Positions 40,092-46,354 of a DNA stretch of 64,000 nucleotides are shown in pieces. Every line of letters starts with the position of its first letter. Positions within the stretch are counted from its first letter, which is position 1. The translations under genes were made by a program, and so were the position numbers. Source of the stretch: an uncultured Acetobacteraceae bacterium (GTDB taxonomy: Bacteria; Pseudomonadota; Alphaproteobacteria; Acetobacterales; Acetobacteraceae); NCBI GenBank assembly GCA_903895595.1, contig CAITUP010000141.1, positions 1 through 64,000 on the forward strand, given 5' to 3'. Below the pieces are notes generated by a model that did no database searches, was not told the origin of the DNA, and worked only from the letters and a program-made list of their open reading frames with translations.

Positions 40092-41456
40092 ATGTCAATC
40101 CGCATCGATCTCATCATCGACCGCCTCGGCGGGCCCGAAGCTGCCGCGCGCCTGACGGGCGTCAGCACCGAAGCCGTGCGTAAGTGGCGTCAGGCCGGCT
40201 TCGTCCCGTCCCGTCACTGGCCGAGCGTGATTGCCGCGACCGGATTTACCCTGGCCGATTTGCAGGCCGAACCCGTCGGAGAGAAACCCGCCATGACCGA
40301 TGTGCCCCCCGGTGCCACCGCCGCTCTGATTTTGGCCGATGGCGCCGTGTTCTGGGGCCGTGGCTTCGGCGCCCACACGCCGTCGGAGAACCCGGTGGGC
40401 GAGGTGTGCTTCAACACCGGCATGACCGGGTATCAGGAGACTCTGACCGACCCGTCCTATGCCGGGCAGATCATCACTTTCACCTTCCCGCATATCGGCA
40501 ACGTCGGCACGAACAATGAGGACCTGGAAGCGGGTGGGATTTCCGCGCGCGGTCTGGTGATCAAGCAGGATATCACCGAACCGTCCAACTGGCGTTCGAT
40601 CCAGCATCTGGACGGTTGGTTGAAGACGCGTGGCATTACTGGCGTGTCGGGCGTGGATACGCGCGCGATCACGGCTCGCATCCGCGACGGTGGGGCGCCG
40701 ACGGGCGTGCTGGCGTTTCCGGCCGATGGGCGGTTCGATGTGGCGGCACTGACGGCGCGGGCCGCGGCTTGGCCGGGGCTGGAGGGGATGGACCTCGCGA
40801 AGGATGTCACCTGCGCGCAGACCTACGGGTGGGATGAGACGCAGTGGGAATGGGGCGTCGGTCAGGGTCGCCAGACCGCGCCGAAGCATCATGTGGTCGC
40901 GGTGGATTTCGGGGCGAAGCGGAACATTCTGCGGTGCTTGGCCTCGGCCGGGTGCCGGGTCACGGTGGTGCCGGCGACGGCGTCGGCCGAGGATATTCTG
41001 CGGCACAAGCCGGACGGTGTGTTCCTGTCCAACGGACCCGGCGATCCGGCGGCGACGGGGGTTTACGCGGTGCCGGCGATCCAGGGCGTGCTGGCGGCGG
41101 GACTGCCGGTGTTCGGGATTTGCCTCGGGCATCAGCTGCTGGCGCGGGCGCTGGGGGCTTCCACGTATAAGATGGAGCGCGGGCATCGCGGGGCGAATCA
41201 GCCGGTGAAGGATCTGACGACGGGGAAGGTGGAGATCACGTCGCAGAACCACGGGTTCGCGGTGGATTTGAAGACGTTGCCCGCGACGGTGGAGGCGACG
41301 CATGTGTCGCTGTTCGACGGGTCGAACGAGGGCTTGGCGTGTACCGATCGCCCGGCGTTTTCCGTTCAGTATCACCCGGAAGCGAGCCCGGGCCCGTCCG
41401 ATAGCCATTATTTGTTCGGGCGTTTCGTGGAGATGATCGAGCGGGTCCGGGGGTGA
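40092..41456 (+). CDS. carA: Carbamoyl-phosphate synthase small subunit with N-terminal HTH domain
   Basis: In the longest frame, 454 residues. Residues 1-60 (IDRLGGPEAAARLTGVSTEA, then VRKWRQAGFVPS) form a small Cro/YdaS-like helix-turn-helix. The CarA proper starts at MTDVPPGATAALILADG (residue 68, ATG at 40293). The GATase domain has the nucleophile Cys344 in GICLGHQLLARALG and the YHPEASPGP His-Glu. It supplies ammonia from glutamine to CarB. A good GGAGAG site precedes the 40293 ATG, whereas the 40092 ATG has only a weak one, so both a fused and a standard form may be made. The domain resembles NCBI's 'carph-isopro' domain as I recall it. Confidence 0.93.
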   Translation: MSIRIDLIIDRLGGPEAAARLTGVSTEAVRKWRQAGFVPSRHWPSVIAATGFTLADLQAEPVGEKPAMTDVPPGATAALILADGAVFWGRGFGAHTPSENPVGEVCFNTGMTGYQETLTDPSYAGQIITFTFPHIGNVGTNNEDLEAGGISARGLVIKQDITEPSNWRSIQHLDGWLKTRGITGVSGVDTRAITARIRDGGAPTGVLAFPADGRFDVAALTARAAAWPGLEGMDLAKDVTCAQTYGWDETQWEWGVGQGRQTAPKHHVVAVDFGAKRNILRCLASAGCRVTVVPATASAEDILRHKPDGVFLSNGPGDPAATGVYAVPAIQGVLAAGLPVFGICLGHQLLARALGASTYKMERGHRGANQPVKDLTTGKVEITSQNHGFAVDLKTLPATVEATHVSLFDGSNEGLACTDRPAFSVQYHPEASPGPSDSHYLFGRFVEMIERVRG

Positions 41457-41457
41457 G

Positions 41458-41778
41458 ATGGACGCTGTCCAGTTGCTTCTGACCACGGCCCTGACGCATC
41501 GGATCGACGAACCGAACATTGAGGCGGGGTTCGAGCGGTTCTCCGCGCTGACTGGCAGCTCGGTCGGATACGGTGCGTTTTGCGATGCGGTCGCAGCGTG
41601 TGTGCGCGACAAGCTGGTGCGTGAGCCGGTTCGGCTGCCGGAAGGGGCGTTGCAGTGCCATTGGCATTTGGAATTGACGCCTGCCGGGGTTGGGGCGGCG
41701 CGGACAATGTCCGTTGGTCCTTGCAGCCGGCTGAATTCCCCGAATGTTGACGCCTTAGGTTGGGTCGGGAGGTCATGA
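41458..41778 (+). CDS. Small hypothetical protein after carA
   Basis: A 106-residue protein starting one base after the carA stop codon, so it is almost certainly co-translated. The first 80 residues have ordinary codon use and a plausible small helical/winged fold (ALTHRIDEPNIEAGFERFSA, then PEGALQCHWHLELTPAGVGAAR). The last 20 residues look unrelated and may be read-through after the native end was displaced by the insertion that carries the ATPase. I do not recognise the family. Confidence 0.6.
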   Translation: MDAVQLLLTTALTHRIDEPNIEAGFERFSALTGSSVGYGAFCDAVAACVRDKLVREPVRLPEGALQCHWHLELTPAGVGAARTMSVGPCSRLNSPNVDALGWVGRS

Positions 41779-41861
41779 GTACTCGCTTCATCTCGGTCCG
41801 GCATGAAGGCTCGATGCAGGCCGAGCATCGCAGGCGCACCGGAATAGCGGCAATTTATGCT

Positions 41862-41906
41862 TTTAGGTGGACATTCTCACCTAAATTGGTAAACTTCATC
41901 TAAATG
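41862..41906 (+). promoter_or_regulatory. Dyad and repeat motif at the ATPase start; leaderless start candidate
   Basis: TTTAGGTG (41862-41869) is an exact reverse complement of CACCTAAA (41878-41885). The same half-site recurs as CATCTAAATG (41897-41906), whose last three bases are the ATPase start codon. The copies of the right half-site are 19 bases apart. No Shine-Dalgarno is visible before the ATG. The stretch is markedly AT-rich. It reads as an autoregulatory operator overlapping a leaderless or near-leaderless start. Confidence 0.55.
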
Positions 41907-43103
41907 AACCCCGTTCGCAATCCCTTCTCCGCTGGCGCTGGTGTTCAACCCCCAGAATTGGTTGGAAGGCAACCAATTTTGGAGCATGCTCGGGTCATGC
42001 TGGAGCGTTTGCGTGTCGGCCGCAGCGCCAAAAGCTTTATAGCGGTTGGATTACGCGGGGTAGGTAAAACCGTGTTGCTGAATCGGGTACGCGATTTGGC
42101 GGAACGCGCTGGGTGTAAGCCCGTTTTCATTGAGGCGCATGAGCAGAAATCACTGCCGGAACTGTTGGTCCCAAGTTTGCGAGAACTGTTGCTGGAGCTA
42201 GATCGCCTCGGTGCCGTCAGCGACCAAGTGAAGCGGGGTCTGCGCGTACTGCGCAGTTTCATGTCGGGAGTCAAACTGCGATACGGGGAAGCGGAGTTGT
42301 CGCTCGGCGTGGACCCAGAGGTTGGGACCGCCGACAGCGGCGATCTCGAAGCCGATTTGCCGACGTTGTTTTTGGCCGTCGGCAAGGCTGCGGCGGCGCG
42401 ATCGGTCGTTGTCGTTATCTTGATCGATGAACTGCAATATTTATCCGTGCGGGACATGAGCGCGTTGATCATGGCGCTCCACCGTGTCGTGCAGAACAGT
42501 CTGCCATTAATGTTGGTCGCGGCGGGATTGCCTCAGGTCGTTGGTCTCAGTGGCCGATCCAAGTCCTATGCGGAACGATTGTTCGATTTTCCGCCCCTTG
42601 ACGCGCTGCCGCCGGAGGACGCGATTCGGGCCTTGGAACTGCCCGTCGAAAAGGAAGGCGCGCAATTCGACTCCGACGCATTGATCGAGATTGTGCGCAT
42701 AACCCAAGGTTATCCATATTTCCTACAGGAATGGGGCTATCAGACCTGGAATATCGCACGCTCGAACCTGATCAAATTGACCGATGTGCGAGCGGCGTCC
42801 GATTTAGCGATCAAGCGGCTCGACGAAAGCTTTTTCCGGGTGCGCTTCGATCGTCTGACACCCCGGGAAAAGGACTATCTGCGCGCGATGGCCGAGATTG
42901 GCCCAGGACCGCATCGTTCCGGCGATATTGCGGAGATTTTGGGCATCCGAATACAGAATATCGGCCCGCTTCGCAGCGCACTGATCCATAAGGGCATGAT
43001 CTACAGCCCGTCGCACGGCGACACAGCCTTTACGGTACCGCTATTCGATGAATTCCTGCGCCGAACCATTCCCGTTTGGCAAACCCCATACAAGAAGCAA
43101 TAG
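41904..43103 (+). CDS. Orphan AAA ATPase inserted between carA and carB
   Basis: A 399-residue P-loop ATPase. It opens with [20 protein letters not shown], then has Walker A GLRGVGKT (49-56), Walker [12 protein letters not shown] (about 166-176) and a sensor-like AAGLPQV. The C-terminal third ([16 protein letters not shown] onward) looks like a winged helix. The overall plan resembles Cdc6/Orc1-like or DUF-type STAND ATPases found as lone genes; the function is unknown. The base composition is less GC-rich than its neighbours, and it sits inside the pyrimidine operon, ending eight bases before carB. This looks like a transferred cassette. Confidence 0.8.
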
Positions 43104-43111
43104 GCGATACG

Positions 43112-46100
43112 ATGCCCAAACGCACCGACCTCAAATCCATCATGATCATCGGCGCCGGCCCCATCGTCATCGGGCAGGCCTGCGAATTCGACTACTCCGG
43201 CGCTCAGGCCTGCAAAGCCTTGAAAGCCGAGGGCTATCGCGTGATCCTGGTAAACTCCAACCCCGCCACCATCATGACCGACCCCGGTCTGGCGGATGCC
43301 ACCTATATCGAGCCGATCACGCCGGAGATGGTCGAAAAGATCATCGCCAAGGAACGCCCCGACGCGATCCTGCCGACCATGGGCGGGCAGACCGCGCTGA
43401 ACACGGCGATGAAGCTGGATGCCTCCGGCGCGTTGAAGAAGTACGGCGTCGAACTGATCGGCGCCAAGGCCGACGTGATCGACCGCGCGGAAGATCGGCT
43501 GAAGTTCCGCGACGCCATGTCGGAAATCGGGATCGAGTCCCCCCGCTCCACCATCGCTCACACGATGGAGGAAGCCCGCGCCGGCTTGGCGCTCACCGGC
43601 CTTCCTGCCGTCATCCGCCCCAGCTTCACCCTCGGCGGCACCGGCGGCGGCATCGCATACAACAAAGAAGAATTCGAACAGATCGTCGCCGGCGGTCTCG
43701 AAGCCTCCCCCACTACCGAAGTGCTGATCGAAGAATCCGTCCTCGGCTGGAAAGAGTACGAAATGGAGGTCGTCCGCGACTCCAAGGACAACTGCATCAT
43801 TATCTGCTCGATCGAGAACGTGGATCCGATGGGCATCCACACGGGCGACAGCGTTACCGTCGCGCCGGCCCTGACGCTGACCGACAAAGAATACCAACGG
43901 ATGCGCGACGCCTCGATCGCCTGCCTGCGCAAGATCGGCGTCGATACCGGCGGATCGAACGTGCAGTTCGGCTTGAACCCGGCCGATGGGCGCATGGTGG
44001 TGATCGAGATGAACCCGCGCGTGTCGCGGTCCTCGGCGCTGGCGTCCAAAGCGACGGGCTTCCCGATCGCCAAAATCGCCGCCAAGCTCGCAGTCGGCTA
44101 CACGCTGGATGAGCTGACCAACGACATCACCATGGTCACCCCGGCCTCGTTCGAGCCCACTATCGACTACGTCGTGGTCAAAATCCCGCGCTTCACGTTT
44201 GAGAAATTCCCCGGCACCCCGGCGTTGCTGACCACGTCCATGAAATCCGTGGGTGAGGCGATGGCCATCGGCCGGTCCTTCGCCGAAGCCCTGCAAAAGG
44301 GGCTGCGGAGCATGGAAACCGGGTACGCCGGCCTCGATCCTGTACCGGCGCCCGGCGACGGCAGCCAGGACGCGTACAGAGCCGCCTTGTCCGCCCCGCG
44401 TCCGGACCGGTTGGTCATGGCGGCGCAGGCCATTCGCGCCGGCCTGTCCATCGAGGACATTCACGACGCCACCAAATTCGACCCCTGGTTTCTGCGGGAA
44501 CTCGAACGGATCGTCCTCGCCGAACGCGCTGTCGAAGCCAACGGCCTTCCCACCGAAGCCGGCGCCCTGCGGCGGCTGAAGGCGCTGGGCTTCTCCGACA
44601 AGCGTCTGGCGCAGCTGACGAACCAGCCGGAAGAATCCGTCGCCGCCAAACGGCAAGCGCTGCACGTCGTCCCCGTCTACAAGCGCATCGACACCTGCGC
44701 CGCCGAGTTCGCCTCCGCCACACCCTATATGTATTCCACTTACGAAGGCGGTTACGGCACGCCGGTCTGCGAGTCCGATCCGACCGACCGGACCAAGATC
44801 GTCATCCTCGGCGGCGGCCCGAACCGGATCGGCCAGGGGATCGAATTCGACTATTGCTGCGTTCACGCCGCCTATGCGCTGAAAGACGCGGGGTTCGAGA
44901 CCATCATGGTCAACTGCAACCCGGAAACCGTCTCCACCGACTACGACACCTCCGACCGGCTGTATTTCGAACCGCTGACGGCCGAGGACGTCATCGCCCT
45001 GATCCGCCGCGAACAGCAAAACGGCACGCTGCTGGGCTGCATCGTGCAGTACGGCGGGCAGACGCCGCTGAAACTGTCGCAGGCGTTGTCCAAGGCGGAC
45101 ATCCCGATCCTGGGCACCAGCGCCGACGCCATCGACATGGCGGAAGACCGGGAACGGTTCCAGCAACTGCTCCACCGCCTCGGCCTGCTGCAGCCGGAGA
45201 ATGGCATCGCCCGTTCCACCGCCGAAGCGGAAGCCATCACCGAACGCATCGGCTATCCCGTCGTCATCCGCCCCAGCTACGTGCTCGGCGGGCGCGCGAT
45301 GGAAATCGTCTACGACCGCACCGGCCTGCAACGCTACATGCGCGAAGCCGTGATCGTGTCCGGCGATAATCCTGTCCTCATCGACCGCTATCTGAACGAC
45401 GCCATTGAGGTCGATGTCGACTGCATCTGCGACGGCGACACTGTCTACGTCGCCGGCGTGATGGAACATATCGAGGAAGCCGGCATCCACTCCGGCGACT
45501 CCGCGTGCAGCCTGCCGCCCTACACGTTGGCGCCGGCGATGGTCACCGAACTCAAAGCCGAGACCGAAGCCATGGCGAAAGCCCTGGGCGTCGTGGGGCT
45601 GATGAACGTGCAGTATGCCATTCAGGACGACACGATCTATGTGCTGGAGGTGAACCCGCGCGCGTCCCGCACGGTCCCGTTCGTCGCCAAGGCTACCGGC
45701 GTCCCCGTCGCCAAGATCGGCGCTCGGGTCATGGCCGGCGCCAAGCTGACGGAGTTCAACCTCGACGACGATTCCATCGCGCCGCACGTCGCTGTGAAGG
45801 AAGCCGTCTTCCCCTTCGCCCGTTTCCCTGGCGTGGATACGATCCTCGGGCCGGAGATGCGTTCGACCGGCGAAGTCATGGGCCTCGACTCGTCGTTCGA
45901 ACGCGCCTTCGCCAAAGCCCAGCTCGGTGCCAGCGTGATCCTGCCGGAGAAAGGCACCGTGTTCCTGTCGGTGAAGGACTCCGACAAGAAAGCGCTGCCC
46001 GCTTTGGCCCGCCGGCTGATCGACATGGGCTTCACGATCGTGGCTACGCGCGGGTCGGCCGCCCGGATCAAGGAAGCCGGCCTGCCGGTGACCGTGGTGA

Positions 46101-46354
46101 ACAAGGTGCTGGAGGGCCGGCCGCATTGCGTGGACGCCATCCGCTCCGGCGACATCCAACTGGTGATCAACACCGCGTCCACCCCGCAATCGGTGGCGGA
46201 CAGCTCCACCATCCGCCGTGGCGCGTTGACGCATGGGGTGCCGCACTACACCACATTCGCCGGTGCGCGGGCGGCGGTACACGCAATCGCGGCTTTACGC
46301 GCGGGAACGCTTGAAGTCGCGCCGCTACAGTCCTACTTTCGGGGTTCGTTCTAG
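43112..46354 (+). CDS. carB: Carbamoyl-phosphate synthase large subunit
   Basis: A 1,080-residue CarB with both homologous halves. The N-terminal carboxyphosphate domain ([29 protein letters not shown]) and the C-terminal carbamate domain ([33 protein letters not shown]) each carry an ATP-grasp fold. The MGS-like allosteric domain ends the protein. It makes carbamoyl phosphate for pyrimidines and arginine. I chose the ATG at 43112 (MPKRTDLK), eight bases after the ATPase stop, with a weak TAGGCGA site, so its translation may depend on the upstream gene. Confidence 0.97.

Follow-up and report, generated by a model that had tools for sequence, protein, structure and literature searches.

Closest described systems

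Archaeal orc1 genes adjoin origin repeats, and the STAND/NB-ARC proteins follow an ATP-switch logic. IniR is described as a protein in which MalT-like and DNA-binding domains are attached to an SSO1545-like ATPase domain (PMC5760070), and an NB-ARC protein compared with Cdc6/Orc1 is described as binding DNA and bending it in an ATP-dependent manner (PMC4599002), so that DNA binding by a core composed of a nucleotide-binding domain (NBD), a lid and a winged helix is plausible.

The ATPase described here is encoded between carA and carB, on a stretch of 64,000 nucleotides (hereafter the window) from an Acetobacteraceae genome of 5.46 Mb. Its predicted structure shares a near full-length fold with archaeal SSO1545 and PAB2304 (Z scores of 23.6 and 24.2), but it is only 16-17% identical to them and falls below the PF01637 cut-off. 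With archaeal Orc1/Cdc6 it has in common the AAA+ plus winged-helix arrangement (Z 17-21) and a gene located beside a short repeat array; it differs from them in scoring far below TIGR02928 and in that its array overlaps a predicted promoter. The NBD-lid-winged-helix core also resembles that of the STAND/NB-ARC switches NRC4, CED-4 and MalT (Z 14-20), whereas the modelled window ATPase displays neither a sensor nor an effector domain. Among phage families, PHROG phrog_6841 is matched at 8.7e-11 over residues 4-275, the winged helix lying outside the match, and distant relatives on viral contigs match it more strongly than the window ATPase does. Among the titles and abstract openings listed in a literature search, with subscription papers mostly outside reach, none dealt with this ATPase in carAB or with its array.

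Organization of the carA-carB locus

The carA stop codon is followed after 1 base by a 106-aa ORF, after a further 125 bases by the ATPase gene, and after 8 more bases by the ATG of carB (Table 1). The sequence-only reading had described a 399-residue P-loop ATPase of lower G+C content, flanked by carA and carB and ending eight bases before the latter, and each of these points was borne out: the ORF carries a Walker A (GLRGVGKT) and a Walker B motif (LIDELQ), its G+C content is 56.9% against 66.6% for carA and 64.6% for carB (GC3 of 0.647 against 0.818 and 0.852), and NCBIfam models identify both neighbours (448.7 bits for carA with TIGR01368; NF003671 for carB). The N-terminus of CarA (window 40,092-40,290) consists of a Cro/YdaS-like domain, named carph-isopro in NCBIfam.

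Table 1. Features of the carA-carB locus, in window coordinates.
Feature	Coordinates	Strand	Evidence
carA, carbamoyl-phosphate synthase small subunit, with N-terminal carph-isopro (Cro-like) domain	40092..41456	+	TIGR01368 1.3e-134, NF046037 1e-18
106-aa ORF, a small gene resident between carA and carB in the genus	41458..41778	+	relatives in the same gap
Nested palindromic half-site array, centre ~41873-41874	41850..41901	+	best array site in the 64-kb window
Predicted sigma-70-like promoter within the array, TGGACA-16-TAAACT with TG	41868..41895	+	9/12 matches
399-aa AAA_16/Orc1-STAND-type ATPase: nucleotide-binding domain, lid, C-terminal winged helix	41904..43103	+	Pfam, predicted fold
carB, carbamoyl-phosphate synthase large subunit	43112..46354	+	NF003671 1731.5 bits

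The small ORF, which the sequence-only reading had named beside the ATPase as splitting carA from carB, is rejected as a cassette part, since its relatives also occupy carA-carB gaps that have no ATPase (e.g. L065, L066, L068, L070-L072). The ATPase unit itself stood, with its start now placed upstream of the ATG, at the array and predicted promoter (~41,850-41,901). Of 59 genomes (own included), 19 have a relative of the small ORF, in many cases within the carA-carB gap; searches with the ORF at thresholds of 0.1-1 in Pfam and of 1 in NCBIfam gave no match. Such relatives were also seen on stretches having neither carA nor carB (G005, G007, G017, G019 and G034).

The junction between carA and carB was readable in 104 genomes: ten with an ATPase, two with remnants and 92 without. 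The ATPase-free gaps range from 4 to 4453 bases (14 of up to 60 bases, 32 of 61-450, 12 of 451-1000 and 34 of more than 1000). SDR-like and LysE-like proteins, recognised by eye, separate carA and carB in 13 of 20 chosen gaps of 662-4453 bases (L137-L144, L146-L149, L151). Because of these genes, and because 34 of the 92 ATPase-free junctions exceed 1 kb, the linkage of carA and carB is loose in the Acetobacteraceae anyway. By eye, a protein of about 100-130 aa with a WW motif was observed in the gaps of L152, L153, L155, L067 and L050 (WWN.IP..FL in several), accompanied by a small membrane-type ORF in L153, L155 and L067; in L049 and L050, a further small ORF of membrane type (LTYLLTKRKERE) separates the ATPase from carB.

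Predicted fold and family membership

An AlphaFold2 model of the window ATPase, computed from an alignment of 46 rows, has a mean pLDDT of 89.6 and a pTM of 0.85, and supports the C-terminal winged helix proposed from the sequence alone, with helices predicted at residues 320-332, 339-346 and 350-362 and a strand at 373-376. The predicted AAA+/lid/winged-helix fold is of a DNA-binding type, in agreement with the suggestion that the protein could bind DNA. In the model, NBD, lid and winged helix fill the 399 residues, leaving no STAND-type sensor or effector. The nearest solved folds are the SSO1545-type archaeal ATPases, followed by Orc1/Orc2/Cdc6, NB-ARC proteins, TnsC, MalT and MuB (VIA-align Z of 24.2 for 2qen, 23.6 for 2fna, 21.0 for A. 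pernix Orc2 and 19.7 for the NB-ARC of NRC4), and RuvB also ranks high in Foldseek. The predicted model agrees with a PF01637-type fold over 322 and 311 residues, at an rmsd of 4.5 and 3.7. Shared fold does not establish function.

The Walker A pattern is present in 123 of 124 copies and the Walker B pattern in all 124. Pfam AAA_16 (PF13191) is matched by the window ATPase with 47.2 bits, above the gathering cut-off of 32.6, and by all 46 aligned relatives at 1e-3. ATPase_2 (PF01637) is matched with 21.6 bits, below its cut-off of 33.2, and by 34 of the 46 relatives at 1e-3; the same threshold gave matches to nSTAND6 in 15 of the 46 and to TniB in one. The window ATPase scores 23.9 bits with TIGR02928 (Orc1/Cdc6), for which the cut-off is 181.3, and the family profile matches ORC4 at 2.5e-7 (residues 17-68).

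A palindromic array and predicted promoter upstream of the ATPase gene

Most copies of the ATPase gene are preceded, just upstream of the ATG, by a nested palindrome of half-sites with a 10-bp spacing, an array that is newly described here. The half-site reads outward as approximately TATAAcT and recurs at +10 (74 copies), and its sequence varies from copy to copy. Over 125 copies, the complementarity of the arms has two maxima separated by about ten bases, 7-11 and 16-18 nt away from the centre, reaching 78%, against a flat level of about 50% in shuffled sequences; the best palindrome per copy has a mean of 15.2-15.7 paired positions out of 26, against 12.7-13.0 after shuffling. Taken singly, 55 of the 125 copies have a palindrome matched by at most 1 of 40 shuffles, and repeated 6-mers reach p 0.05 in 51. 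A model built from 27 copies of the family and class samples was applied to 80 named loci outside its training set, and in 69 of them the best-scoring site lay no more than 110 nt upstream of the ATPase. Random placement would give 0.97, or by our own estimate about 8 if the competition were limited to some ten upstream regions per locus; this test is not fully independent, because the upstream regions were viewed first and the arm registers derive from all 74 arrays. In four of the 80 loci none of the ten best sites was upstream. With a 74-copy model the top site was upstream in 71 of the 80, and the four loci without one were Acetobacter L180, L206, L207 and L216. Loci L167, L171, L183, L186 and L228 each contain a further strong array site that does not lie at the start of the ATPase.

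In the window the array reads TTTAGGTG-8-CACCTAAA, with outer half-sites CAATTTAT and GGTAAACTT recognised by eye. It is the top-scoring site of the 64 kb (22.8, the next being 16.4), the window array being itself part of the training set; taken alone, its palindrome was equalled by 2 of 40 shuffles and its repeated 6-mers gave p 0.02. The pattern occurs once in the 5.46-Mb genome when up to three mismatches are allowed, a pattern that divergent sites may escape. The array overlaps the predicted promoter, one of 2 promoter-like sites in 3.4 kb, where shuffled sequences would lead one to expect 0.8. From this promoter, transcription would be expected to start at about 41,902, giving a leaderless or nearly leaderless ATPase mRNA.

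The array is missing from five Acetobacter-type copies at carAB, in which the ATPase starts right behind carA; in two genomes assigned to this type by the tree, G345 and G172, its absence was noted by eye. The divergence of the recognition-helix region relative to the AAA domain is 1.51 in the array-less copies (8 pairs) against 1.05 (85 pairs) and 1.01 (1042 pairs), which is only suggestive of a faster change of that region, the five copies being related and two of them nearly identical. Covariation between winged helix and half-site gave a partial r of 0.14 (11/999), but the AAA domain gave an r of 0.23 (0/999). In G008 (L047, 7600-8494) an array resembling that of the window stands not before an ATPase gene but before a DUF5677 gene of 272 aa, itself located between two ATPase copies; this array is possibly a relic promoter or a second target.

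Distribution and neighbourhood of the ATPase family

The ATPase was found in 19 of 59 genomes of a sample of relatives, in 36 of 299 genomes (20 of 102 genera) of an even sample of the Acetobacteraceae, and, at a stricter threshold, in 15 of 240 genomes of a class sample, the own genome being included in each. That genome also encodes another copy (54% identity), flanked by proS and a lolC/E gene. At least 584 stretches of genome_contigs encode relatives, the best 80 of which are 52-64% identical and come from Proteobacteria, Planctomycetes, Verrucomicrobia, Chlamydiae, Chloroflexi, Elusimicrobia, Acidobacteria and others. Relatives are also encoded on 119 of 72,556 plasmid records and on 1 of 50,697 phage records, the latter match being unannotated. 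An alignment-based scan of viral contigs yielded 43 loci, some of them only 25-32% identical, and the same scan with the window ATPase alone as query gave no match. The family is patchy across many phyla and most likely a horizontally spreading accessory gene. Away from carAB it displayed no preference for co-directional gaps, the downstream gene being co-directional in 40 of 72 cases against 268 of 422 other gene pairs (crude gene calling).

An integron, IS or phage unit was set aside, since visual inspection of the 25 neighbour clusters listed for 80 loci revealed no such partner. Another explanation is that the protein is an Orc1-like or TnsC-like helper or initiator of a mobile element, and the array an origin or a transposon-end-like site. 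The presence of Orc1/Cdc6 and TnsC among the fold matches, the iteron-like array beside the gene, the copies on plasmids and viral contigs (some of the latter being the distant ones noted above), and the IS genes seen at less than 5 kb from the gene in two of the seven plasmid regions inspected would agree with such a role. We nevertheless give it little credence, for no transposase, integrase or replicase was recognised by eye in the 25 clusters (most of which have no search-based name), the Orc1/Cdc6 model score is far under its cut-off, and the residence at carAB has probably been long.

A solitary anti-phage or anti-plasmid defence ATPase, sensing invading DNA or a phage product, with an array that merely keeps its level low, is also rather unlikely, if less so. 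The family is patchy, transferred and turning over with remnants, as would suit this role, which is hinted at because of methylase-like and BPTD_3080-type neighbours. An ORF of a methylase-like cluster lies upstream in six of 80 named loci (within 268 bp in five and at 2 kb in one); these ORFs measure 232-988 aa in the frames seen, and the two tested hold a CcrM-like segment far below the model cut-off. Three of the six loci also have an ORF of a second cluster, whose L210 member scores above the BPTD_3080 restriction endonuclease cut-off. Finally, the PADLOC model mad8 is weakly matched by 30 of 46 relatives, at best at 7.6e-8. These matches, however, cover the ATPase domain at 20-25 bits (six of the eight proteins that were scanned one by one), the window ATPase has no PADLOC 2.0 match at 1e-3 and no effector domain in its model, and seven annotated plasmid regions have no partner gene in common. 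The name mad8 comes from the MADS system, on which a literature search gave nothing among the papers listed.

Probable capture, inheritance and loss at carAB

The ATPase is not a fixed neighbour of carB, a possibility that had been raised against the cassette interpretation: a full copy lies at carAB in 19 of the 299 family genomes (own included). Of the 36 ATPase-positive genomes in this sample, three others hold a remnant there (G187 having a full copy elsewhere as well), and the remaining 14 carry copies or pieces away from carA and carB within the stretches fetched. In all, 22 of 45 full-length ATPases compared, from 21 genomes (own included), are encoded between carA and carB, and four of the 80 named loci share this location (Roseomonas L160 and Acetobacter L180, L206 and L207, L206 being nearly equal to the locus of G345). 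The gaps of G028, G194 and G187 contain ATPase fragments without a full copy; in G009 and G012 the full copy is accompanied by a fragment, and in G008 the full copy is present twice.

The 22 carAB copies fall on one side of a branch that separates them from the 23 others (86/88; 90% of 200 bootstrap trees), and in a larger tree with 79 further relatives 25 carAB copies are separated from 98 (SH-aLRT 76). With this branch support, which is moderate, the grouping suggests one old capture in or near the Acetobacteraceae, followed by repeated loss and some transfer. A lone, private and recent insertion is made unlikely by this clustering, which includes the Acetobacter and Roseomonas loci, and by the remnants in other gaps. 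The window ATPase is closest to a copy from another genus (70% identical to that of G120, with CarB at 85%) and only 57-59% identical to the copies of its own genus (CarB at 89-94% where complete); the AU test nevertheless allows a tree in which the genus copies stay together, as under vertical descent (p 0.115). G248 and G188 have ATPases of 91% identity but CarB proteins that do not group as sisters, an indication of transfer or replacement.

ATPases diverge faster than CarB, and they are under purifying selection: YN00 estimates of dN/dS were about 0.09 for L105/L108, 0.08 for L049/L050 and 0.11-0.13 for L053/L055 and L061/L062, with no value for three of the eight pairs and with dS near or past saturation in the more distant ones. 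A probably long residence at carAB might also mean that the protein has been domesticated as a regulator of carB, kept in the gap to couple carbamoyl-phosphate synthesis to the nucleotide state. The close spacing, from which the sequence-only reading had suggested that carB translation may depend on the cassette, recurs, the ATPase stop lying within 15 bp of carB in 15 of the 22 carAB copies (one of the 22 was not measurable), and the array-less Acetobacter-type copies start directly behind carA, as such a regulator might. This reading is nonetheless distinctly unlikely, given that so few family genomes have a full carAB copy, that the family occupies many other loci, including the proS-lolC/E gap of the same genome, and that the window array pattern has no second genomic copy.

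Proposed mode of action

On the computed anatomy, array, distribution, carAB clustering, purifying selection and predicted fold, the reading that we prefer, at a probability of about 0.6, is a self-contained one-gene unit, in which an array-embedded promoter and an Orc1/STAND-type ATPase would form a self-regulating pair that was captured at carAB. The protein would be an ATP-switched, DNA-binding ATPase that alternates between ATP- and ADP-bound states and uses its winged helix to assemble on the array of its own gene, with two or three protomers per arm and one per helical turn. When bound to the array it would limit its own transcription, an autoregulation that we infer because the promoter overlaps the array and the array sits at the ATPase gene itself. 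ATPase levels would then stay low until the protein is titrated away, whether by a signal or by additional DNA carrying the array. The unit would spread horizontally as an accessory gene, one lineage having reached the gap between carA and carB at an early stage, in or near the Acetobacteraceae, and having since been mostly inherited, lost or replaced; in the Acetobacter-type group the array may have been lost, the probable direction of change, and the ATPase have become a plain operon gene.

As a tentative first guess, somewhat short of even odds, the downstream role of this one-gene unit is that of a defence-type or stress-type switch. It is very doubtful that array and ATPase constitute a minimal selfish element, which would recognise only its own phased array, control its own dose, exclude or tolerate siblings by array identity and spread without a transposase of its own.

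Significance for the family

A widespread, transferred ATPase family has a recognisable DNA site in most of the copies examined, and this array therefore offers a direct handle on what the ATPase may bind and how it may be switched. The carAB lineage, with its array-bearing copies, array-less copies and remnants, provides a natural series for the capture of a gene by a core operon and for its loss.
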